Shown one piece after another: positions 10,303 through 51,900 of a stretch of DNA of 64,000 nucleotides. Each line of letters opens with the position of its first letter. Within the stretch, counting starts at the first letter, position 1. The DNA is from Antedon mediterranea (lineage: Eukaryota; Echinodermata; Crinoidea; Comatulida; Antedonidae): NCBI RefSeq assembly GCF_964355755.1, contig NC_092675.1, forward strand, positions 9,313,312-9,377,311, given 5' to 3'. Under the pieces are notes generated by a model. That model was not told the origin of the DNA and did no database searches. It saw only the letters and a program-made list of their open reading frames with translations. The position numbers were made by a program, and so were the translations under genes.

Positions 10303-12290
10303 AGCGTGTTGAATAGTGGGTGGAGACTGAATAAGAATAGAAAACAAAGAAGGTAGCTTGGTAGAGATATAAACAATTTTGGAATGGAACTAAAAAAAGC
10401 TAAAATGGTGGTTAATATTGAAACTTAAATTTTGGTAGTCAATGGAATAATTTTACCGATCTGGGAGTATGTTCCTAATGTTAAGTCCAAAAGGTTTTGT
10501 GGTTTTAAGTAGTAATTCCCAGTGGTTTTCTTTGTCTTTGCGAGTTTTGTCGCTCCATTTGACATCGTGGTCTATTGCAATAACTCTGAAATTTGCAATC
10601 GAGTGACCAGCTGAATTAAAATGTTCGGCTACAGGTTGATCAAGCTTTAATGTTTTGATAGCTGATCTATGTTGTGTCATTCTCATACGGAGAGTGTTTT
10701 TTGTTTCTCCGACTGTTTGCCACAAATATTACAGTATATGAGATAAATGACGTTTTTGGTTAGACAATTAATTGATTGTCTTATCCGAAAAATGCGGCCA
10801 GTTTGGTTACTCTCAAATTTTTCAGTAGAATCAACCAATGAATAAGTTTTGCAAGATTTGCCGCAAAGGTGACTGCCCAAATTTTGGCTGTCATGAGAGT
10901 TAATTTCACTCTTAAATTTGGATCTGACTAATATATCACGAAGGTTGGGAGGTCTACAAAATGCAATAATGGGTGGTTCCGGAAAAACAGTCCTGAGACG
11001 TTCTGTGGACTGTAGAATGGGCATGTTTCTCAATAATAGCCCGTAATGGAGGCGGCAACCTAGGGTGGTAGGTTGTGACCAATGGCACTCTGGTCGGTTT
11101 TTTTTTGGCTGAAGTGGTTTGTACGTTAGTGTTTGACATCGAGGAATATCTTTTGCTTTCTTTATAGCAGTTTCGATGTATTCCTTCTTGTAATTTCTAT
11201 TCCGGAGATGTCCGGTTAGTTCTTCGGTACGATTCTGAAAATCTAAATCTGAAGAACAGATACGTCTGTTACGTAATGCTTGACTGTACGGTATGTTTTT
11301 AGTACAGTGTCGGGGGTGACAACTGATAGGGAGCAGGTACATATTTTTATCCGTGGGTTTACGGAATAGGTCAGTTTTGAGTGTACCATTTTCTATGGTC
11401 ACTATAGTATCCAAAAAATCAACACTGCTAGTGGATTTGGTAGGTGTAAATTCGATAGTTGGGTGGGCTGAATTAATATTGAGAAGAAAAGATTCCAAAT
11501 TATCTTCACCATGGGTCCAGATCATGAAGATGTCGTCAATGTATCTAAACCAAACATAAATTTGCAAAAGATGGCGCCATTTTTGTGCCCATCGCTGTGC
11601 CATGAATTTGAAGGTAATGGTCATTTCCAAAAATAAAATTGTTGTTGGTTAAAATCAACATGACCAGTTCTCGTAAAATGAGCTTTAGTAGGCGTTTTGC
11701 CTGGAATTTGTATGTAATTTAAAATACATGCGTCGGCTCCTTCTTCGTGAGGGATATTAGTATACAATGATGAAACATCTAATGTAGCCAGAACAGAATT
11801 ATTAGGTAAATTTTGAATTTGGTTAATTTTGCGGATAAAGTCCGTGGAGTCCTGAATGTATGAAGCGAGATCAGTCACTGGTCTAAGTAAATCATCCACA
11901 TATTCAGAAATTTTCTCTGTAGCAGTGCCATTGCCCGAAATAATGGGTCTATCAGGATTGCCTGCTTTGTGGATTTTAGGTAGGAAATAAAATCTGCCTG
12001 GAACTGGATTGACCTGTGCCAAATGAGGTCCAATCTTAGGATCGATGGAGTGTTTTTTTACCATCACAGAAACAGATTCGGCCACCTTATCCGCAATTTC
12101 CGGGGTGGGATCCGTTGTAAGTTTACGATAATGAAGAGGATTATTTAGCTGTCTTAAGGACTCCTCTTCATAAAATTTGATGTCCATGGCAACAGTGGCA
12201 GAACCTTTATCAGCGGGTTTAATGACGCAATTTGGCAATGGCCTGCCTCTCTTGTTTTGAGAGATTGTCACGTTTATCTGGACTAAATTA
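10303..12290 (-). pseudogene. Penelope-like retroelement, RT plus GIY-YIG, 5'-truncated and frameshifted
   Basis: Three minus-strand pieces (12271-11621, 11630-10683, 10725-10453) form one decayed polyprotein. The first carries VIKPADKGSATV, FYFLPKIHK, RPIISG and LATLDVSSLYTNIP, matching Penelope RT motifs. The second has the catalytic RYIDDIF and VDFLDT. The end carries IYCNICGKQ, then after a frameshift VGETKNTLRMRMTQHR and a GLNIRN-type C-terminus of a GIY-YIG endonuclease. Another frameshift lies near 12245, where RDNLSKQERQAIAKLR joins VIKPADKG out of frame. The 5' end stops at about 12290. Such elements make cDNA by target-primed reverse transcription; this copy cannot be functional. 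Confidence 0.85.
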
Positions 12291-13586
12291 AATATAGTTA
12301 TAGGCCCATTCTATAATGCCACTTATAGCATATTTTTCACATTAATCAAACGGAAAATGTTTTACTATTGGGCTATTCGGGAATTCAATAAAATTTAACA
12401 GTTTAGGAATAGTACTAAGTACTTAGTAGTAAATAAATAACACAATTATAAAATGCGCATACATTATTAAGACATCGCTCCCTGTCTGCGACGTTATACC
12501 GTAACCGGCACGTTTGGCGCGCCATATACAAGGTATGAGGTTCTCGTCGACAGCCGAAATGGACCTAAGCCCAAGCCTAGTAAAATATCGTCTCGCTTCA
12601 CTTCACTTCCGTTTTATTTAATTCAGTGCAGTGCATGGATTAAAGAATAGATAATCCATGGTCAGTGTTGATTCGATTGTATAGGCCTAACTACTACACA
12701 TCGTTGTATAGATTGGGATTTTGACAGAGGAATTACATTTGAATGCTAATATGTTTCCTTTATCTTCCTTGTGAATTGGTTACGTTCAGAGAGGAAGGCA
12801 ATACTTTTCTACAATAAGTAATACTCTTCTACAATAAGTAATACTCTATCCACCGAAGCCACCTACCTGTTAAATTAAATCGGTTCAAAGGTGGTACAGA
12901 TGACTTGGTTTATCTGTGTGTGTGTGGGTGGCTGCAGTAAAATACAGGTCGTATTGGCGGATCAATTTTGGCCACCAAAACAGGTCCAGACTCTGTTATA
13001 TGTTGCGCAAAATTGGTCATAATATATATTATTTAAAAACTGCCAACAAAAATACAGTAGATGGGTTGGCTATAGACTTTTCGCACTAAAAATCACCAAC
13101 ATTTTGTCTTCATTTTCTAGGGAAAAAAAGTCTGACGATTTTTATAGCAAAATTTTTCCTATTCTGTTTGCAACACCATTTTAAGAGAACGATTAGATAC
13201 ATGATTTATGTTACACATTTTATATTTATGTAGATGTAGGCCTACCTATCAGCGTTGCCAGCGATAAAATTTAAATTATGCCGTATCCTGTCTCAAATAA
13301 TGCCAGATTGGGAAAAAAAATGCCAGATCCCCAAAATGTGGCCCTAAACAGCGCCACCAACGGTTTTATGTCTAATAAACGTTTGTAAAACCCCAACTGA
13401 CACAAAATAGGGCCTAAAATTGTATCCCCATGTCGTACAAAATTTATATTTTTAGTTTTGTGAGTAATAACTAATAATTCTAAATATCTGGGGTGCGAAA
13501 ATGGTAATTGCAAATGACACCAACACCAACCCCCACCCCCCTACCCCACCCAAAAAAAAAAAACCTGTTACACAGGGTTCTAGGAC
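12291..13586. other. Intergenic stretch without recognised gene
   Basis: No supported coding exon. A GC-richer patch at 12485-12620 (CGTTTGGCGCGCC, CGTCGACAGCC) could be promoter-like but no gene follows. The minus ORF at 13271-13513 has no recognisable domain. Confidence 0.4.
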
Positions 13587-13805
13587 ACCTACCCCCTAGA
13601 CAGTTACCCCCCGGATGTTTACCACCCGGACAACTACCCCCTTAGGACAACTACCCCCCCGGACAACTACCCCCTTAGGACAACTACCCCCTTAGGATAA
13701 CAACCCCCCCGGACAACTACCCCCCGGACAACCACCCCCTTAGGACAACTACCCCCTTAGGATAACTACCCCCCGGGTAACTATTCCCCGGTCAACTACC
13801 CCCCC
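13587..13805 (+). repeat. Minisatellite GGACAACTACCCCCTTA, left block
   Basis: About a dozen imperfect units of 14-17 bp (GGACAACTACCCCC with optional TTA). The reverse-complement array occurs at 14995-15245, so the two blocks are inverted around 13806-14994. Confidence 0.85.
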
Positions 13806-13864
13806 CCCTCCATCCAAAAGTAGACAAATATATAGGACCGGTTTCTGTAAAAATGAAATCATCT

Positions 13865-14350
13865 GTTTTTAACGGTGTTTCGAAACTAGAGACCCGAGAC
13901 CAGAGACCTGACACGAGACCCAATACGAAAAGGGAGACCTATATTTGGGTCTCCCTTTTCGTATATTAGGGTCTCCCTTTTCGTATAGTGTGGTCTCTCT
14001 TTTCGTATAGTGGGGTCTCCCTTTTCTTATAGTGGGTCTCCCTTTTCTTATAGTGGGTCTCCCTTTTCGTATATTTGGGTCTCCCATTTTGTATATTTGG
14101 GTCTCCCTTTCGTATAATTGGGTCTCCCTTTTCGTATATTTAGGTCTCCCTTTTCGTATATTAGGGTCTCCCTTTTCGTATAGTGGGGTCTCCCTTTTCG
14201 TATAGTGGGGTCTCCCTTTTCGTATAGTGGGGTCTCCCTTTTCGTACGTGGGTCTCCCTTTTCGTATATTTAGGTCTCCCTTTTCGTATTGGGTCTCGGG
14301 TCTCTGGTCTCTGGTCTCGGGTCTCTAGTTTCGAAACACCCGTTTTTAAC
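13865..14350. mobile_element. MULE-like nonautonomous element built from a GTCTC minisatellite
   Basis: Exact 35-bp terminal inverted repeats at 13874-13908 and 14306-14340 begin GGTGTTTCGAAACTAGAGAC. They are flanked by the 9-bp direct repeat GTTTTTAAC at 13865-13873 and 14342-14350. One extra C at 14341 separates the right terminus from its duplication. The interior is almost wholly tandem GGGTCTCCCTTTTCGTATA-type units of 20-25 bp. The inner TIR half is itself made of GAGACC words. A 9-bp target duplication with long TIRs is typical of Mutator-like transposons; the superfamily call is inferred. There is no coding capacity. Confidence 0.7.
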
Positions 14351-14994
14351 CGATTATTCTGTTTAACAGCACGCTAGAACCTAGATGTGCTAGATTTAAA
14401 GTACCGTATTTATTGAAAAAACGGCCTGGGCTGTTTATTGTTTAGGTGGTTTTTAGGTGGACATTTATTGGAAGAAAGTTGTTTATTCAATGGGAGGGGG
14501 TATAATCTAATGGAAATAGACGCCGATTATTCCATATGATGTTTCATGGGAGTGACATGGTCACCGTTTATTTCAGGGGAATTTATTTAAAGATCGACGT
14601 TTATTCGGTGAGTGAACATTGAGGTCAAATATCAAAAGTGATATTATTCTTCAAGTGTACAAAAATACATATATGACAAATTTGAGACAAAAATTAATTC
14701 TTTTAAGACCAGTGGTTATCGAAGCATTGTCCTGACGCAAAAATTATTATTATTATTAGCGAACCCAGTCTTTACAGTAAATACAGGGAGTACTATATAA
14801 TACGTTCGACTATCCTATGATCATGTGTGACAATCTTCAGTTTATACCAGGCTATATTTATGTTCAATCTTTTACTTTTGTTTACAATAATGAATAGTAA
14901 TTCGTCAAAGTAACGAATTAAAATATAGTTATTAATTCCTATTATACACTGTTGCAGAGTCAGGTTGTTGAATGGTCTGGGTGGTTAGGGTGTT
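14351..14994. other. Unassigned spacer between minisatellite blocks
   Basis: AT-rich, with TTTATT-containing phrases (TGTTTATT, CGTTTATTC) repeated irregularly at 14400-14620. No coding exon recognised. Confidence 0.4.
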
Positions 14995-15245
14995 CTAAAG
15001 GGATAGTTTTCTGGGTGGTAATTGTCCGGGGGTAATTGTTCCTAGGGGGTAATTGTCCGGGGGGTAGTTGTCCTAAGGGGGTTGTTGTCCTAAGGGGGTA
15101 GTTGTCCGGGGGGGTATTTGTCCGGGGGGGTATTTGTCCGGGGGTAGTTGTCCTAAAGGGGTAGTTGTCCTAAGGGGGTAGTGGTCCAGGTGGTGGTTGT
15201 CCGGGGGTTAGTTGTCCGGGGGATAAATGTCCAGGGGATGAATAT
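14995..15245 (-). repeat. Minisatellite, right inverted block
   Basis: Units GGGGGTAGTTGTCC/TAA, the reverse complement of the array at 13587-13805. Confidence 0.85.
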
Positions 15246-15299
15246 CCGGATACGGTTACGCAGCCATGGAAATTTATAATTTTTGAACTGAAATATGAG

Positions 15300-16350
15300 A
15301 GCTGCTCGATGGCCGGGATCTTTGCACTTAATTTCAAATATGAAAAGATCTTAGCCCACCATAATTAGAAAATAGCAATTATAATTTAAAATAGGAAATA
15401 AAAAAAATTATTTTGAGTGTCTCCAGGACCTCAGCCCCACCATGGTTGATAAGAAAATTTGGACAAATACCTACTCGATGGCCGGAAATGGCACTTAATT
15501 TAAAATATGAAAAAAAAAATATATTTATTAGTGTCTCCATGATCTTAGCCCACCATAGTTCGAAAATGGAAATTATAATTTAAAATAGGAAATCAAAATA
15601 TATATTAATTGTGTCTCCAGGACCTCGACCCCACCATGGTTGGGGCTGAGGTAAGAAAATATGAAAAAAATAGAGCTGCTCAATGGTCGGAAATGGCACT
15701 TAATTTCAAATATAAAATAAAAATATATTTATTAGTACCTCCAGGATCTTAGCCCATGATAGTTTTGAAAGTACCAATTATAATTTAAAATAGGAAATAA
15801 ACAAATATATTAAGTGTTTCCAGGACCTCAGCCCCACCATGGTTGGGGCTGAGGTAAAACAAATTGGAAAAATAGAGCTGTTAGATGGCCGGAAATGGCA
15901 CTTAATTTAAAATATGAAATCAAAATATATTTATTAGTGTCTCCATGATCTTAGCCCACCATAGTTTGAAAATGGCAATTATAATTTAGAATAGGAAATC
16001 AAAATATATATTAATTGTGTCTCCAGGACCTCAACCCCACCATGGTTGGGACTGAGTTAAGAAAATATGAAAAAAATAGAGCTGCTCACTCAATGGCCGG
16101 AAATGGCACTTAATTTCAAATGTGAAATAAAAATATATTTATTAGTACCTCCAGGATCTTAGCCCACGATAGTTTTGAAAGTGCCAATTATAATTTAAAA
16201 TAGGAAATAAAAATATATATTAAGTGTTTCCAGGACCTCAGACCCACCATGGTTGGGGCTGAGGTAAAACAAATTGGAAAAATAGAGCTGCTAGATGGCC
16301 GGAAATTGCACTTAATTTTATAAAAATGTATAAGAGTCCCTAGGACCTCG
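15300..16350. repeat. Tandem satellite of about 205 bp, six copies
   Basis: The phrase TGGCCGGAAATGGCACTTAA (with variants) starts near 15310, 15480, 15685, 15897, 16095 and 16297, giving spacings of 170-212 bp. Each unit also carries TCTTAGCCCACCATAG and TCCAGGACCTCAGCCCCACC. The last copy trails off near 16350. Confidence 0.85.
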
Positions 16351-17030
16351 CCCCATCATGGTCACTGAGAGGTGAAGAACATTTGGAAATATAGGGTTGC
16401 TACGACGATGCAAATGGAACATAATTTGAAATATGGAAAATAAATTCTCTAGAAGAAATTCTTTTTAAAATTAGAGCTTCTAGTTACCGGAAATTGCCAT
16501 TTTAAGGGTTGGGGTAGGGGTGTGGCCACTTATGATTATGAACTGAAAAAACAAAACCCCTTTCATAATGTTTTCGTTCAATCGTCTCTATATCTGGGGA
16601 TCCAATAACCTGCATGGTCTCTGAAATAGAGCAACATAATTGGCCAATAGCTAGCCTCTTCGGATTTGTTGTGCTGCCTATATCGCACACACGGTAGTTT
16701 TCGAGCAGCCTTCCTATCCGAAGAGTCGATGAAGTCAGAAACGAAAGGATGGAAGAACTATTGTACGGAAAACCCGAACAGATCTGTTTTTACGATATGA
16801 TATTGTGTAAGGTGATATGTATTAACAAAATATTTTATTTTTGTTCTGTGGTAATATTATTTTTTTGGATGTTCAAAAAACACAAAATTATGCCAGATTA
16901 TGCTAAAAACGGCTAAATAATGCCGCGGCATTATGCCAGATGCCGTGGGCCTCCAAATAATGCCAAAAAGCATAATAATGCCAGAAATGGCAACTATGCT
17001 ACCTATTAAATAATATACCTGTTGTTGAGG
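16351..17030. other. Unassigned stretch
   Basis: No gene supported; the small minus ORFs at 16502-16690 and 16857-17093 show no domain or splice signals. Words such as AATGCCAAAAAGCATAATAATG recur at 16900-16995 and resemble 13290-13330, suggesting an old repeat. Confidence 0.35.
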
Positions 17031-19625: not shown

Positions 19626-20081
19626 TGGAACATAGGCTACGTCAGGAACTGTTTAACATCAGATTCAGTGCTTCTCCTCAAGGTAAAATAATACTGTACA
19701 GAAAATGTTGTAAAAAACTCTCAGTCAAGAATCTTTTATAATGTTTAAATATAAATACCAGGATGAAACAAACTTCATTTACATGCTCTGTATTTGTTTA
19801 AATTTAATACAAGTAAAATATATTTATTAATACAGTAAATGATCAAAGATATTTCATATTTTAAACTGTGAAAGATAGGTATCATATATTTCATTATAGA
19901 AATTAGAATTTAATTCTTGGGGGTGTGGAATTTTCTAGCCAGATCCAGCAAACTTGAAGATTTAAAGACCTGGTTCATTATCCTTATACATGGTAGAATC
20001 ACCACTTATTTTTACATGTTTTTTGTGCATGTCTGTATATACAGATCTTTAAAATTGGTCGTTAATTCTAACCATCTCAGA

Positions 20082-21285
20082 CCCATACTGCAAGAAGACA
20101 GCATCCATTTGACATCCAATATTAGACCTATACTGCAAGGCGGCATCCATTTGTAGTCTGATATCAGACCCATACTGCAAGAAGGCAGCATCCATTTGAC
20201 ATCCAATATCAGACCTATACTGCAAGGCAGCATCCATTTGTAGTCTGATATCAAAACTATACTGCAAGAAGGCAGCATCCATTTGACATCCAATATCAGA
20301 ACTATACTGAAAAAGGGCAGCATCCATTTGACATCCAATATTAGACCTATACTGCAAGGCAGCATCCATTTGTAATCTGATATCAGAACTATACTGCCAG
20401 AAGGCAGCATCCATTTGACATCCAATATCAGACCTAAACCACAAGGCAGCATCAATTTGACATCCAATATTAGACCTATACTGCAAGGCAGCATCCATTT
20501 GTAGTCTCATATCAGAACTATACTGCCAAAAGGCAACGTCTATTTGACATCCATTATCAGACCCATACTGCAAGGCAGCATCCATTTGACATCCAATAGC
20601 AGACCTATACTGCAAGGCAGCATCCATTTGTAGTCTCATATCAGAACTTGCTGCAAGAAGGCAGCATCCATTTAACATCAAATATCAGAACTATACTGCA
20701 AGAGGGCAGCATCCATTTGACATCCAATATTAGACCTATACTGCAAGGCAGTATCCATTTGTAGCCTGATATCAGAACTATACTGCAAGGCAGCATCCAT
20801 TTGACATCTAATATTAGACCTATACTGCAAGGCAGTATCCATTTGTAGCCCGATATCAGACCTATACTGCAAGGCAGCATCTATTTGTAGTCTCATATCA
20901 GAACTTGCTGCACGAAGGCAGCATCCATTTGACATCCAATATTAGACCTATACTGCAAGGCAGTATCCATTTGTAGCCTGATATCAGACCTATACTGCAA
21001 GGCAGCATCCATTTGTAGTCTCATATCAGAACTTGCTGCAAGAAGGCAGCATCCATTTGACATCCAATATCAGAACTATACTGCAAGAGGGCAGCATCCA
21101 TTTGACATCTAATATCAGACCCATACTGCAAGAAGGCAGCATCCATTTGACATCCAATATCAGAACTATACTGCAAGGCAGCATCCATAATTTGTAGTCT
21201 GATATCAGAACTATACTGCAAGAAGGCAGCATCTATTGGAAGTCTGATATCAGGCAGCATCCATTTGACATCCAATATATACACC
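20082..21285. repeat. Minisatellite with 42-45-bp units, about 27 copies
   Basis: Units alternate two forms. One has CATCCATTTGACATCCAATA and the other CATCCATTTGTAGTCTGATA; both then have TCAGACCTATACTGCAAG and GGCAGC. Unit length is a multiple of three, so long minus-strand frames stay open and give repeated MLPCSIGLILDVKW and QMDAALQYRSDIGC peptides. The array ends 16 bp past the GTF2F1 stop codon, within or at the end of its 3' UTR. Confidence 0.9.
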
Positions 21286-21300
21286 CCATTATCACAATCT

Positions 21301-24300
21301 TCATGTAGACTTGATTGACCAGTACACCTTGTCTTTAATGACCTCTTTCTTAGGGCCTAACTTTAACATGACCTCTGTAAGACGTTTAACAATGTCAGTG
21401 GGTGACATGCCTGTTTTTTTTGGATTCAGTTTATGCAATAGATCTTTTGTAGTCATTGGTTTTCTCATCAAATACCTCCTCACAACATCCTCTGTGATGC
21501 GGACCTCACTGCAAATAGAAACAATAATTATTATTAGATTGCTTCAAGGGTACATTCTACATCCTTATAAGGTGGTATCAAATATCTTATCAAATTAACA
21601 TCAGTATAAACATATTACTTTACAGTAAACTTTTATAGTTTTGATTTGACATAATTTTATGAAGGTGCATGCAAGCGTCTTTGAGCACTTTTTTAGTGGC
21701 ATTTTGATGACGTCTTAACACTGCAAAAGTTTAACAAAATCATGTCGGAAAAATTGAATATAATAAAGTGAACTTCAGTAAAATTATATTTGCAAACTGT
21801 GAATTAATGATTTTTATTGGTTATTTTAAAATAAAGCTTTTACACGTGGGCTTCGTTCACTCAAATCTAAAAGTCCCTAATAACTCACCCTGGTTGCCCT
21901 TTCAATGGCATAGGGCTTTCAGTGCGAGGTTTCTTGGAAGGAGGTCCAGGTGTTTGTGATTGTGATGATGACCCTGCATCACCTTGTCTTTTGTTTGATA
22001 CACCTGGAAAGGAATAATTAAAAAATCTAATCTATATTCTATTTTTGTCAAAATTAAATTCAAATATGTTTTGCATATCTATTTCAATCATTGAAAACTT
22101 GAACAAAATTGTTGGAAAACTTGAAAAAAATAGTTGGAAAACTTGAAAAAAATTGTTGGAAAACTTGAAAAAAATTGTTGGAAAACTGTTAAGTGGTTTT
22201 ATATGTACACAATTACACATGGCATAATGCCTTTTACATGGTAGGTTATTCTGCAAGATTAAGTATATCCAAAATCAAAATGTATAATAATCATATTGTG
22301 TACAATAATTTAAATATTTAACTTACCTTTGTCCTGTAAACGTCCAGCAACCTGCGACAGTGTAGTTGTTGTGTTATCTGCAGTTAAGGGTGTACCAGGT
22401 CTGCTACTGTTACGACTTGAACTCTTTGAAGACTTTCCACTCGTTTTCTTAACCTGAGTTTTATTCTGTAAAAAACATTCAAAATCAGGAGACAGGAATT
22501 GATCTAATGCTATAACTCTGCACTAAATTTTACTGTAAAATATTTAAATGATCAAATGGTATTCAAAATACTAAGACTAAGCAGGAAAGAGTGAAATTAC
22601 TCTTTCTTTCACTCTTTCCTTGGACTAAGCAAATTCTGGACAAGTCTACTTAAACTTTGACCTACCTGCATAAAGACTGCCGACTGTATCTTTGAATCAT
22701 CGATATCACTATCATCAGAATCAGATCCACTTGCACTGCTCCCATCTGTAATAACATTATTAACAAAACTTAAGAAAAAAAACTTTATTTAAATCTAAAG
22801 ACAGAAAGTGCAATAATCTAGTTGTATAAGGGATGATTCCAAATATTTGTTAAGCTCTGTCTACACTATTAAACTTTTTGTGACAAAAAAAAATGTCATT
22901 TGCCCATATTATATGGATATGATCACATCTTATCAATATTTGGGCACATATCACAATTTTTGTCAAAGTAGTTTGATAGTGTAGTCTTGGTGACATCTAG
23001 GGTTATCTTTTAACTTCTTTGATAGTGTAGACTTGGTGACATCTAGGGTTATCTTTTAACTTCTTTGATAGTGTAGTCTTGGTGACATCTAGGGTTATCT
23101 TTTAACTTCTTTGATAGTGTAGACTTGGTGACATCTAGGGTTATCTTTTAACTTCTTTGATAGTGTAGACTTGGTGACATCTAGGGTTATCTTTTAACTT
23201 CTTTGATAGTGTAGACTTGGTGACATTTATGGTTATCTTTTAACTTCTTTGATAGTGTAGACTTGGTGACATCTAGGGTTATCTTTTAACTTCTTTGATA
23301 GTGTAGACTTGGTGACATCTAGGGTTATCTTTTAACTTCTTTGATAGTGTAGTCTTGGTGACATCTAGGGTTATCTTTTAACTTCTTTGATAGTGTAGAC
23401 TTAACTTCTTTGATAGTGTAGACTTGGTGACATCTAGGGTTATCTTTTAACTTCTTTGATAGTGTAGACTTGGTGACATCTAGGGTTATCTTTTAACTTC
23501 TTTGATAGTGTAGACTTGGTGACATCTAGGGTTATCTTTTAACTTCTTTGATAGTGTAGACTTGGTGACATCTAGGGTTATCTTTTAACTTCTTTGATAG
23601 TGTAGACTTGGTGACATCTAGGGTTATCTTTTAACTTCTTTGATAGTGTAGACTTGGTGACATCTAGGGTTATCTTTTAACTTCTTTGATAGTGTAGTCT
23701 TGGTGACATCTAGGGTTATCTTTTAACTTCTTTGATAGTGTAGACTTGGTGACATCTAGGGTTATCTTTTAACTTCTTTGATAGTGTAGACTTGGTGACA
23801 TCTAGGGTTATCTTTTAACTTCTTTGATAGTGTAGACTTGGTGACATCTAGAGTTATCTTTTAACTTCATTGATAGTGTAGTCTTGGTGACATCTAGGGT
23901 TATCTTTTAACTTCTTTGATACATCTAGGGTTATCTTTTAACTTCTTTGATAGTGTAGACTTGGTGACATCTAGGGTTATCTTTTAACTTCTTTGATAGT
24001 GTAGACTTGGTGACATCTAGGGTTATCTTTTAACTTCTTTGATAGTGTAGACTTGGTGACATCTAGGGTTATCTTTTAACTTCTTTGATAGTGTAGACTT
24101 GGTGACATCTAGGGTTATCTTTTAACTTCTTTGATAGTGTAGACTTGGTGACATCTAGGGTTATCTTTTAACTTCTTTGATAGTGTAGACTTGGTGACAT
24201 CTAGGGTTATCTTTTAACTTCTTTGATAGTGTAGACTTGGTGACATCTAGGGTTATCTTTTAACTTCTTTGATAGTGTAGACTTGGTGACATCTAGGGTT

Positions 24301-27300
24301 ATCTTTTAACTTCTTTGATAGTGTAGACTTGGTGACATCGAGGGTTATCTTTTAACTTCTTTGATAGTGTAGACTTGGTGACATCTAGGGTTATCTTTTA
24401 ACTTCTTTGATAGTGTAGACTTGGTGACATCTAGGGTTATCTTTTAACTTCTTTGATAGTGTAGACATGGTGACATCTAGGGTTATCTTTTAACTTCTTT
24501 GAAAAGTATATTCATGCAGCACGTTTTTCAAAAATCTGAATCATTTTTAATTGTACAACTAATCTTAAGTGTGGTTCTCACTAGAGACGCAAAACAAAGA
24601 CGTAATGCAACGTAAGTGATTTGACCAATCACAAGCAATGGATTATTCAAATAGTAGATTGTCATTGGTCAACTTGCTTTCATTGCGTCTATGTTCTTGC
24701 GTTGCGTCTCTATGGGTAACCAAGCTTTAGTTCCCACCTTCTTTACTTTTGTCCTCTTTATCTTTATTCTCTGCATCCTCTACTTCTGGTTCTTTTATTT
24801 CTTCTTCTTCCACTTCTTCTTCACTTGATACATTGATCTCTTCTATCTCCTCATCTAAACCACGTTCTTCATCTTTTCTTTGTTCTACAGTTTCTTCTTC
24901 ATCACTACAGCAAAATAATCAAATCAATACAGTATATTCAAAAATAAAAATTAAGTTAACAAAACTGGTAGGTAAAGTGTGACACTGACCTAGACCCATA
25001 AACCTACTGTAGAAAAAATGAATAATAAACAGAACAATAATAATACAGACATTGAATTGAAAATTACAAATAACAATTTAAAATTCAACATTATACTGTA
25101 CAAACATGTAAACTTGTATGTCGATTAGATACCTAGATTTTTCTGATAGATAATCTTTTTCTTGATCATCGTAATCATCAACGTCACTTTCTTCACCTGC
25201 TTCTTCGCCCCAATCTTTCTTTTTTACTCTGTATTTTTTCTTTGAGTTCTTAGCTTTCTTTTTGGCCTTCTTTTCTATTAAAAAAATATGATTCCACTTT
25301 ATAAAATTGTCACATCCATCATAACACAATTTGTAATCATACACAAATATTTATTATTCATATCATATACTGCGCATTATTTTCTGTAATGACTAAAAGT
25401 ACTATTGTATGGATAGTGGATAAATCGAGCATCTTCAAGACTCCATTCAAGATGGATTCATTGAATAAAGGTTTACTTTACAACAGTAACAGTACAATAT
25501 TTTGTATTTGTTGAACGGCGTTAATATTTTCATTTGTTATAAAACTGAATGTTCTACTGTACTATTCAGCTCCGCCTATCTAATAGAACAACCAATCTTT
25601 TAACTCGAGTGAGTGGCCGAGCGGTTAAGACAGTGGAACCGTAATACATACCCATAACACTGGCAAGAGTTCAAGGCTCACTCGTTCCATGGTTCTGGTG
25701 GTGGAACGATTCTTCTCGGATGAGGACTATAAACTCTGTACACATCATGCTCATGTGCACTTTAGTGCAGAGTAATAGTAGGTGGCACTGCACACACACA
25801 GCCACTCATCATAACTGGGCCCGCTTTGATTGAAGAGGCCCCTAAGTATAATGAATAAATAATTATAATAATTATAATATAAAATGTACCTTTTGCTTGC
25901 TTTCTTTCAGTATCATCAGAATCATCGTCGGAATCATCATCATCATCAGATAAAAAGCCTAAGTATTCATCATCTTCAGTTATTGTCTAAAGAATAACAT
26001 ATAATAACAAATCACAAAATATCAACCAGTTATTATATAATAAAAATAAATTGTATGAATAATGGATTGCACCACCCTGCCTTAAGGACTTGAATCAACT
26101 TAAACATTAATATAAAAATTACTTTACAAGTGAATCTTTCTTTCGTGGAGCTTTGGATTTTTCTTCCTTTTGTTCGTCTTCCAATGACCCATCTTGTTTT
26201 ATTCGTTTCTTCACCATAACAGAAAAGAAATTTAATGTTTTGTCCCTCCTGCAATAATAACATTAAAGACTATAAAAATGATATACATAAAAAAAAGCGT
26301 CTTTGGTATGACCTAGGACTAATATCGTGACGTAATTTCCCGCATGATTGCAATAAAAACGGTACTGGGTTTGGTCTATTTCTGCTCCTAACTACCTGTA
26401 GTCATCCATTCATAGAAGCAATGATGAAGCAAGTCTACCTAGTGGCGACTATACAAACTTTAGTTGATAAAAGATTGAAATGTTTTGTTAGAGATATAGT
26501 AGTATAGGATGTTTCATTATAGTGTAACATTTTTGTAGGCCTATGTCTATTAGATTAGTTTGATATGTGATGGATTAGTTAATTCATTATACATCATTAA
26601 GATATTGTTTTATTATAAATATCTATAGAAAACAGTGATATGTGTTAGTTATAAAGCATTTCATATTAAAAAAAATGTTGGTCTTCACAAATCTACGCTA
26701 CGGAAAAGGGTGATAAAGCACAATAAATGAAATAATGTAATTACAGCAGTTTTTAGGTTGTCACAAGTTGAAAGCTCCCACCAAGATGTGAAGGATGGGA
26801 CCAACAGGTGGTAAACACCTCTAAAACGGTCCAGTCCCAATTGCATAGTGGCTTTGAGTTATAGTGGCTGTCATGTACTAGTACACCGGGGTAACCCCTT
26901 ACTTGTCTGCCAGATGTACTAGGTTCTTTAAAGATAGATGTGTACACTAGACCTACAGTTTAACGTCCTTATCCAAGAAGACCCAATCTACCACCAGAAC
27001 AATGGAGCGAGTAAGCCTCAAACCCTTGCAGATGTTATGGGCTATGGTACGTAACTACGGTTCCACTGTCTTACCCGCTCTCCCACTTATTTAGCACCAA
27101 GGAAAAATATAGTTAGTTATTCAACAACTAATTTAATTTCTTTCTTTACCATATATCCAGGCCGGACTTATTTTAACTCATTTCACTATTACAAAATTAA
27201 TATTGAAGAACTGACCTCCCAAATTCTTCTTCAGCTTCCTCATCATTTAGAAATTTATATTGCACCATAGGAGTAAATTTATACCAGGATTTAACAGGTG

Positions 27301-30300: not shown

Positions 30301-33300
30301 TGCTTATTTAAAAATGGTCAATTTTGAACTTTAATGTGTTGTGTGTGTGTGTGTGTGTGACCTCAACCTGTAGGCATGCAACTGGATATCCTCTAGAGAC
30401 AACGTGACTTTACGGCGGTACATGAGAAAATTCTTCCCAGTCTGTTGATTCGCGTCAACCAATCAAAGGGCGAGAATCCAAAATCGTTCAACCGTGAGCC
30501 CTCATAGACTCTCTTTTCCCAGACGTTTTTTGCCTTGGGTCCAGCAGCTGGGACTATAAATTACGCCGTGGTTAGGATTCCGGCACCGGAACTCAACTGC
30601 CCAGCGTTAGGGAATCAGACACGCTATTGCGCATGCCCAGAGCGAGGTAATCGGGGCGACTCTATACTTATCAACAGCGATGGATCATTTCATAGCTGCG
30701 CCACACGGCGAACTAGCCTAGCCTAGATGCCTACTAATATGGGATCCACTAATCTAGGCTAGGGCTACCAGTTAGACGTGACCAGTGGGCCTATAGTATT
30801 TATTTTGTAATTAAAAAGTGGTTGCTTCATTCATATATAAACTTCATATCATTATGAATTATATAATTACATGACTAGTTTTATGATTTTTCATAACGCA
30901 TTATAGTTACTCTCTACATAACAACATGCAATCACAAGTTGATTTGTTGACGGCAGCCACCGCGTGAATGTGAAAAAACTGTTCGGGAAGTCAGGGTCGC
31001 AACGCTAAAAACAGCATTACGATTCTTAGATAGATACTGATACTTATTAATATAATTATTTTAACGCGTGGCGTAGTCGTATTTTAATTATTAATTCATG
31101 TATGGCATAGGCCAAGTTTCATCCATCGCTCTCTCGCTCGCGCAACGACTATCTAGGCTACAGTAAATCCCTATAACACTCCGACTCTCCGTGGTGTGTG
31201 GCACACTATAGTGCAAGCTATAATTCACTTCCCAGAGCTATGAGCATGCGCAATAGTGTGTCGGATTCCCTAACGGTGGGCAGTTGAGTTCCGGTGCCGG
31301 AATCCTAACCACGGCGTATAAATTATAGTTATAGAGTTTACAAAGTCGCAAAACTGTTGGCCTTAGAAAGATACTAATACTATAACTGCTGCTTGCTTTA
31401 ACTTTAATGAATAAGTAGTCCTCATTCATGGCACGTAGCTGGCTATAGCAGCAGCGTGAAAAAAATAAATTATTATTTTTAATAACAATAAATATGACTA
31501 TTTATTTAGTATTAGGCCTAGGGCCTAGCATCCGTTGCATGGGTATGGGTTGACCTGTATTCAGCTAGCTTAGGCTAGTCCCCCGCTAGGCCTAACACCA
31601 CTATAAGCTAGGGCCTAGCTAGGCCTACCACAGGCTAAAGGAGGCTAGGCCTAGGCTACTACTTATTGAGTACTAGGCTTAGGCCAGGTAGGCTAGGCCT
31701 ACTCTGGCCTATAATAGCTAGCCTACTACTAGGCCTAGCCTAGTAGGCCCTAGGCCTAGCTAGGCCTAGTAGGGAATTACGATCATCTCGGTCGCGTTTC
31801 ATTTCGGTCGCGTGTCAATTAAGGTCAATTTTCAACAATATCGATCGTGGTGTATGGCGCGTCAATTATGCATAAAGCATACGAAAATGGATGCTATTGT
31901 AGGATTGAGACTTAACTGTCCGATTTAACTCTCTTTCAGCACTCGGTACGTGTAGCAGTTCGAATTTATAAACCTGTTTGCATTTGTAACGATTTTTATC
32001 TATATTTTAAGGACACAACAAGTAGCTTACGAAGACGACTCCAATATGTTAATAATTATGAATGAGTAAAATGGGAACACCCAACTTTTATCGCAAAAAT
32101 CGTGAATTTATGTTTATTTATTTATTAATTTTTTTGTTTTGTTTTTATTCATTTCTTTTTTAAGGCTCGCCCAACACAATATATTTGTCTTCATCCTCCA
32201 GTCTGCCTCAAAGTCTGACCTCATATCATATTGTTATTGCATTGTACGTTATTATCTTTTATGCTTGTAAATAAATGTTACGAAACTAGTGTCAGCTTTT
32301 TAAATAATCTCCCGCTTTTTGGCTTCTAAAAGGCACCGCATGCATTTATACATCTTACTTCTAGGACGTCGACCTTGTATTCCAAAATGACAGTCTTTTC
32401 ACACGCGTTCAAGAATTCATCAATCTCTTCTTATCGTTGCGGCATGTTCTTTGATAGGCATATCAGTTACCGTTTATTACTGATACGTCATTCTTGAGAC
32501 GTTTTAGTGGGGACTCCACCCCCACTAAAACGTCTAAATAATACGTTATATAGGGGGTCTCTGTTTTCGAGTTTTTCTCGAAAATAGAGACCCCCTATAT
32601 AACGTATTATTGAGACGTTTTAGTGAGGGTCTCTGTTTTCGCGATTTTCTCGAAAACAGAGACCCTGGGTCTCTGGTCTCTGGTCTCGGTTTTCGAGGTC
32701 TCTGTTTTCGAGACACCCGTATCACAGCAGACTGAATCGAAAAGGACGACGTGGTAAGAAAATTACTTTTCAATTATAATATTATGTATTATGTTGTTAA
32801 CTTGCTCATGATAATTATAGTATATCGTTATTTTTGTTATTTCAGCAAAACTTCAACTCTACCTCTTAATCGGGCTGCTGCATGAAGAGAGTCAGAATGT
32901 TCACATCACAATGGAATTAGTTCATCGCGAAGATGTTGACCGGCTTCAGCGACAAGCTTACCGACGTGCAACTAGAACGCTCTTACGCCTCTGAGTATCG
33001 CGCAGGCCAACGATCAGAGAATCGCGCGTTATATCAAACGATGTTCGCGATTTGTAGATGAGATAGATGTAAATATTGCTAATAAATAAAAGATTAAATA
33101 AATAGATAAATTAAATAACGTCTGTAGATGTAAATAGAGGTAAACATTGTTAATAAATAAAATATTAAATACATAGATAAATTAACGTTTGTAGATGTAA
33201 ATAAAAAGGTTTCAATTTGAATGATGAATGTAAACATTTGTATATGCGTTTTTGTTTTAAAAATAAAAGGATTGAATTGAAAAACAGTGTGAAACGAGTT

Positions 33301-51056: not shown

Positions 51057-51900
51057 GATATAAATCAAAGAGCTGCATAGGCAGGATATAGAAAAAAATC
51101 AAGATCAAATAAGTTAAAACTGCCTCAATATAGATTTATTTTAACGACATGTTTCAGGCATAGCCCATCATCAGGTGAAAAGAATTGTAACAAAGGATAA
51201 CATATAAGTCACAAAATTACATAATCAATCAAAGATGTTAACAAACAAAAGGCATAGTTATAAAGGCACGCCTCCAAAAGCTATGGTGTACAAAGCAGGA
51301 ATGGTTGCTTATAAAGCAGGAAATTTAAAACAAAGACAAAAGCTTCAAGTGTAAATAATTGTTAATATGTGAATGTCTCTGGCAAAATTAATGTTTAAAG
51401 GATCTAAATTGTACATTTATGCCGGTAGGGGCAAGAGTGCCAAGCTTTACAATTATTCTTTCTTCTATAATTCTACGAGATGTCTCAGAACCATTACATA
51501 CTTTAACACCAGAAATTGTAATATCCGAAAGGGAATGCTCATTATTACAAAAATGGGTGGCTACAGGTAATCCGGGAGTCTTTAGTTTAATAGACCTTAA
51601 ATGTTCTACAAACCTATCACCTAACCTGCGTTTAGTTTCACCAATATAAAGCATATTACATTTAGTACACGAAATACAATAAACTAGATTTCTAGTGGTG
51701 CACGTAATACGATCTGTGATAACATAATTACCAGAAGGTCCTACTATTTAGTTTGAACATGAAACGTAATTACATGTCGAACATCTATTTCTATTACATT
51801 TGAATGTTCCAGTTGATTCATTACCTTTGTTTTGTAATTTAGATTTAACTAAAGTGTCTTTAATGCTTTGATCACGTCTGTAAGCTATCATGGGTGATGA
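51057..51900 (-). pseudogene. Second Penelope-like element, C-terminal part only
   Basis: Minus strand. A linker PMIAYRRDQSIKDTLVKSK with a Cys cluster (CNRNRCSTCNYV) at 51895-51748 is followed, after a disrupted stretch, by GIY-YIG endonuclease sequence at 51654-51388 (MLYIGETKRRLGDRFVEHLR, THFCNNEHS, RIIEERIIVKLGTL). The RT domain is missing (5' truncation at TA-rich DNA near 51900). The 3' UTR carries the hammerhead-like core. The element differs from the copy at 10303 in both linker and nuclease sequence. Confidence 0.8.
51138..51182 (-). ncRNA. Hammerhead ribozyme-like motif in the Penelope-like 3' UTR
   Basis: Minus strand: TTTTCAC, CTGATGA, a short stem II (TGGGC/GCCT), GAAAC, two loop bases, GTC, then GTTAAAA. 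TTTTCAC pairs with GTTAAAA at six of seven positions as stem I. The invariant core CTGATGA...GAAA and the cleavage triplet GTC are intact. Type I hammerheads with very short stem III are described for Penelope-like elements. Confidence 0.65.

Follow-up and report, generated by a model that had tools for sequence, protein, structure and literature searches.

TU elements are foldback transposons of sea urchins. Foldback elements with ends composed of tandem units are known from several organisms, Drosophila and sea urchin among them (PMC4079207). The Mutator/Foldback family Tm1 of root-knot nematodes has composite ends with tandem units of ~14 bp, asymmetric terminal motifs, target duplications of mostly 9 bp (range 8–10 bp) and many MITE-like copies, with FLYWCH and a MULE transposase present in one copy (PMC3169594). 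In Table 1 of a second study, FLYWCH is given for some members of the Phantom clade, duplications are 8–10 bp, and aphid Phantom MULEs are listed with a mini-satellite after the transposase ORF (PMC6446971). The same source describes Rehavkus as having 9-bp duplications, a mini-satellite just before the 3′ TIR and a transposase with a PHD finger. Tetris/Foldback of Drosophila has long inverted ends of tandem units and duplications of 8–10 bp (PMC4079207). Tandem repeats are also carried by MITEs: examples are (GTCY)n in lepidopteran MITEs (Coates 2011, cited in PMC9659126) and a minisatellite in a MITE of P. gingivalis (PMC4596501).

Here we describe a nest of mobile DNA in the crinoid Antedon mediterranea, found in a stretch of 64,000 nucleotides (contig NC_092675.1, positions 9,313,312 to 9,377,311) that we call the window. 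The nest consists of known kinds of mobile DNA, a minisatellite module rich in GTCTC words lying in a MULE that lies in a hAT-like element. The MULE shares all of the Tm1 features listed above, but its unit sequence is different, and a palindromic minisatellite module is not described in the Tm1 sections cited. FLYWCH, the duplication lengths and the position of the minisatellite after the transposase gene are shared with Phantom elements, although a minisatellite with its own inverted ends is not described in the Phantom table. The 9-bp duplications and the mini-satellite just before the 3′ TIR are as in Rehavkus, whereas the transposase found here carries FLYWCH rather than a PHD finger. Likewise, the inverted tandem-unit ends and the duplication lengths resemble those of Tetris, but Tetris has units of ~220 bp and no known transposase. 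As in the satellite-carrying MITEs, a tandem repeat is spread as the passenger of a non-coding element; however, in those cases the element is the MITE itself, whereas here the repeat is a palindrome in a larger MULE. Judged by domain and ends, the window element appears to be a Phantom/Foldback-like Mutator with a minisatellite passenger. Its architecture is already known in outline; the only thing that sets it apart is that the passenger is palindromic.

Results

Inspection of the module in the window showed a palindrome of ~470 bp with 7-bp GTCTC words (Table 1). The initial annotation had described exact inverted ends of 35 bp, a repeat-filled interior and a lack of coding content, all of which were confirmed. 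The inverted ends are exact over 35 bp and extend to 41 bp at 95% identity. The interior is a tandem array of a 22-bp unit (16.1 copies, 89% match), and 16 matches to the unit were observed compared to 0.12 expected, which excludes chance. About 15 units are arranged forward and head to tail, versus 1 that is reversed in the left arm. Because this left-side unit points the opposite way, the module body is a foldback with unequal arms; single-strand folding gave z = −12.3. The module was also considered as a gene and rejected, as its long ORFs (168 aa at most) exist only through in-frame repeat units. The 9-mer GTTTTTAAC borders the module on both sides. The left end of the window copy lacks one G: it reads AACGGTG, whereas the right end, like other copies, has AACGGGTG. 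The right inverted end is therefore separated from the 9-mer by an unmatched C at 14341.

Table 1. Coordinates of the nested elements and related features, in window positions
Feature	Position	Strand	Remark
GTCTC module, palindromic minisatellite passenger	13874..14341	+	13872-14343 if terminal AC/GT included
GTTTTTAAC direct repeat, left copy	13865..13873	+	fixed in nearly all genomic copies
GTTTTTAAC direct repeat, right copy	14342..14350	+	
Left 35-bp inverted end of module	13874..13908	+	one G lost relative to other copies
Right 35-bp inverted end of module	14306..14340	-	
Single reversed 22-bp unit, left foldback arm	13923..13944	-	
22-bp tandem array, consensus TATAGTTGGGTCTCCCTTTTCG	13940..14289	+	
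Non-autonomous foldback MULE copy, 1679 bp, GGTTCTAGGACACC...GAATATCCGGATACG	13576..15254	+	actual inserted unit
Left 9-bp target duplication of MULE copy, GTTACACAG	13567..13575	+	
Right 9-bp target duplication of MULE copy, GTTACGCAG, one mismatch	15255..15263	+	
Left terminal tandem array of MULE, 15-17-bp GGACAACTACCCCC(TTA) units	13583..13804	+	
Right terminal tandem array of MULE, inverted same units (GGTAGTTGTCC...)	14991..15237	-	
Outer hAT-like repeat carrying MULE, ends CAGCGTTGCCA / CATAGTTGCCA	13250..16998	+	
8-bp target duplication CTACCTAT, left	13242..13249	+	
8-bp target duplication CTACCTAT, right	16999..17006	+	
Diverged relative of GTCTC end (ACGGGTGTCTCGAAAACAGAGACC), nested hairpins	32496..32720	-	

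The initial annotation had taken the module for a mobile element flanked by a 9-bp target duplication and had proposed a search for further copies with the same ends, different bordering 9-mers and variable repeat number. The genome searched comprises 354 Mb in 18 contigs. An initial search, in which 40 of 322 candidates were scored, gave at least 47 matches to the module, including several that were full-length and 100% identical. A 20-bp end word allowing up to 2 mismatches occurs 491 times genome-wide, compared to 0 for the control, and the genome contains roughly 240 module copies. The copies do vary in repeat number, with 5–19 units and sizes of 223–523 bp in simple cases. However, GTTTTTAAC is the same in essentially all of them and thus was not duplicated at the arrival of each copy.

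The junctions of the module are equally constant. A 26-bp junction word occurs 464 times genome-wide, so that about 464 of the 491 ends lie at two junctions, a ratio that is approximate because the end word and the junction word differ. The outer flanks were identical at the first 30 of 30 module loci, and among 90 loci the sequence outside the module ends was TCTGTTTTTAAC or TCGGTTAAAAAC in nearly all. Each of the 40 paired modules among the listed matches had one junction of each type. A genome-wide search for an empty module site, in which the two flanks are joined, found none within 1 mismatch; the best matches had 2 mismatches and were module junctions, as were almost all of the listed matches with 2–3 mismatches. 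Nine non-standard ends were read, of which four (L093, L096, L099 and L101) belong to modules that lie in the MULE as usual but have mutated junctions, and five are one-ended. An independent MITE would be found at unrelated sites with a separate duplication at each, and would leave empty sites, and the module shows neither. The shared junctions together with the lack of an empty site indicate that it does not move by itself. We conclude that the module is not a mobile unit but a constant component in the interior of a larger transposon.

Outward alignment of the copies identified that transposon. On the left, similarity ends at GGTTCTAGGACACC, on the right it ends at GAATATCCGGATACG, and the flanks turn unrelated exactly at GGTTCTAGG and CGGATACG. 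The termini are arrays of 15–17-bp units in inverted orientation that match each other on opposite strands, which are the long inverted ends of tandem units found in foldback-type elements. Exact duplications of 8–12 bp, mostly 8–10 bp and differing between copies, flank 36 of 50 complete MULE copies; the list has 55 end pairs because it also includes five secondary nested left ends. Among these, 18 duplications are 9 bp, 10 are 8 bp, 6 are 10 bp, and 11 and 12 bp occur once each, in keeping with the 8–11 bp (usually 9 bp) of the Mutator superfamily. Several copies without an exact duplication, including the one in the window (GTTACACAG/GTTACGCAG), have near-matches. Thus the mobile unit is the surrounding MULE element of 1.7–4.7 kb.

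A few copies depart from this arrangement. In L018, L059 and L072 a second MULE left end starts within the GTCTC array, where GGGTCTCCCTTTTC is followed directly by GGTTCTAGG. These compounds are flanked by target duplications of their own (TTTCACGG, AGGCTATAT and GTATTTTTG), indicating that the compound itself has moved. At L008 the right flank is the left flank inverted, with a second inverted array further out, and this locus possibly consists of two elements in opposite orientation. At L003 the sequence to the right of the module is unlike that of the short copies and unlike that of the transposase-bearing copy.

The one transposase-bearing copy that was read is an intact-looking relative of 4659 bp (L091; C2:22959617-22964275) with both family ends and an exact 9-bp duplication, CTTTTAAAT, on each side. 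Its MULE-domain match (PF10551, E 3.7e-16, 59.8 bits), at C2:22961653 and 1.6 kb from the module end, gives the family the domain of the Mutator superfamily in a full-length member. FLYWCH (PF04500, E 3e-7) is encoded in an exon upstream of the MULE exon, and its position N-terminal to the MULE domain is that of the Phantom clade. The transposase gene contains introns, and the module is situated ~0.7 kb beyond the stop codon in the last exon. The initial annotation had suggested a search for an autonomous relative with a MULE transposase; this element is a candidate, with the module inside it and with the ends of the surrounding MULE. The window copy is 84% identical to this relative over 1245 bp, from the left end through the module to ~14747. 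Short non-coding copies such as that in the window lack the transposase gene but have kept the module, the ends and part of the interior. Given this alignment the short copies look like deletion derivatives, and the ends that they share with the 4659-bp element suggest that they would be mobilised in trans by its transposase.

The window copy of the MULE sits inside a high-copy outer repeat. This repeat is bordered on either side by the 8-bp duplication CTACCTAT, and its short inverted ends are of the CA type (CAGCGTTGCCA / CATAGTTGCCA), features by which we classify it as hAT-like. In at least six hAT-like copies (C3:33.72M, C1:0.37M, C4:11.82M, C7:21.15M, C7:14.88M and C6:20.27M), match coordinates place the left and right parts next to each other without the MULE, and such abutting parts indicate empty sites of the MULE insertion seen in the window. 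MULE-carrying hAT-like copies are also present at C4:0.15M and C8:22.57M, where homology stops at the hAT edge, and C3:14.32M contains the MULE with at least part of the hAT-like repeat. Since homology ends at the hAT edge and the outer flanks differ, the MULE and hAT-like repeat moved or were copied as a unit; the composite was probably moved on by hAT activity, or copied by duplication.

The window also contains two long tandem arrays, one at 20077-21237 with ~42/87-bp units and one at 22972-24502 with 46/138-bp units, of which 23921-24502 is 99% homogeneous. Minus-strand ORFs at 10686-12310 and 51391-51747 resemble Penelope-like pieces and are reverse-transcriptase-like by eye; neither gave a Pfam match, and GIY-YIG was below the cut-off at 51391.

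Discussion

The best explanation of these data, to which we assign a probability of about 0.87, is that a foldback-type Mutator (MULE) family carries the GTCTC module, a palindromic minisatellite, as a passenger fixed in its interior. The module would have entered an ancestral MULE once. We infer this capture step, as the copies were all retrieved by way of the module or its junctions and none of them was a MULE without the module; nor did any complete module with two ends turn up outside the MULE. What was captured would most likely have arisen by inverted duplication from the end of a second repeat family, and capture would have left GTTTTTAAC, or only TTTTA, on either side. Ordinary tandem-repeat slippage or recombination could later have changed the unit number. 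The MULE transposase would move short deletion derivatives in trans, the module being copied along each time, and in the window one MULE copy inserted into a hAT-like repeat.

Where the arms of the module came from is a separate question. The initial annotation had offered inward amplification of terminal sequence or capture of a minisatellite as cargo; capture is the closer description, yet the module may derive from the end of another family. One-ended relatives (L092, L094, L095, L098 and L100) have the exact terminus, the GTCTC words and the 22-bp array and then continue into other sequence; L102 is grouped with L094, and L103/L104 is a further one-ended relative. As the outer flanks of these relatives are unrelated, they suggest that the module arms come from another repeat family. 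A body of ~230 bp, shared by L094, L100 and L103, is present in up to 10 places. The diverged GTCTC end at 32496-32720 (ACGGGTGTCTCGAAAACAGAGACC) recurs, with a preceding T, at least nine times with no paired end nearby. In its specific form, the proposal is that the second family had GTCTC at one end only, its far end being different, and that a palindromic end-duplicate formed on insertion into the MULE ancestor. This is a statement of origin that is compatible with the passenger explanation, and we hold it tentatively, at close to even odds. The one-ended relatives and their common body argue for it, as does the finding that the 24 ends whose preceding base is non-standard include no +/- pairs. 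However, the far end is seen in two copies only, which are alike until ATGAGAATAGGTT, where identity stops, and no target duplication was seen in these two copies. A MULE transposase was not assigned to the one-ended family, since PF10551 is absent within several kb of the listed orphan ends, the nearest match being ~7 kb away at C6:9.16M. AC precedes GGGTG in 5 of 7 one-ended relatives, which suggests that the true module end may be ACGGGTG...CACCCGT and that the duplication may be only TTTTA rather than a MULE-type 9 bp.

It is unlikely that the module is instead an old working component of the MULE, such as a transcription-end element or an array, internal or subterminal, to which the transposase binds. 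According to this alternative, which we give low probability, there was no insertion and GTTTTTAAC on both sides is a design feature. All MULE copies that were retrieved contain the module, the transposase-bearing one among them, which is consistent with such a role, although retrieval went through the module or its junctions. The lack of an empty module site points the same way, as do the mini-satellite listed after the transposase ORF of aphid Phantom MULEs in the table cited above (PMC6446971) and the proposal that tandem units of foldback ends are extra transposase binding sites (PMC4079207). Nevertheless, the module is on one side only and not within both ends, and a range of 5 to 19 units makes a strict function unlikely. 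Moreover, arms that occur elsewhere with unrelated flanks break precisely at the module terminus, which fits acquisition. A more speculative variant, and an improbable one, is that the module is what remains of another foldback-type transposon, so far unrecognised, whose far end is asymmetric and which forms palindromic duplicates of its end. One of these duplicates would have settled permanently in the MULE family because it is useful there, as a hairpin RNA trigger or as 3′ insulation of the transposase gene. Finally, the perfect inverted ends, the flanking 9-mer of MULE length and the many near-identical copies would fit an independent MITE driven by a MULE transposase through 35-bp ends with 9-bp duplications, but the shared junctions, the fixed orientation of 40 of 40 pairs, the absence of empty sites and exceptions that read as one-ended or as mutated junctions in MULE context make this very improbable.

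The passenger explanation carries a caution for annotation, because perfect inverted ends and a 9-mer in one copy mimicked a transposon until comparison of copies moved the borders. With a transposase-bearing copy, short copies and indicated empty sites, the MULE family would offer a tidy case for work on animal foldback MULEs. It also illustrates that a minisatellite can reach a few hundred places without mobility of its own, inside a transposon that is carried by another.
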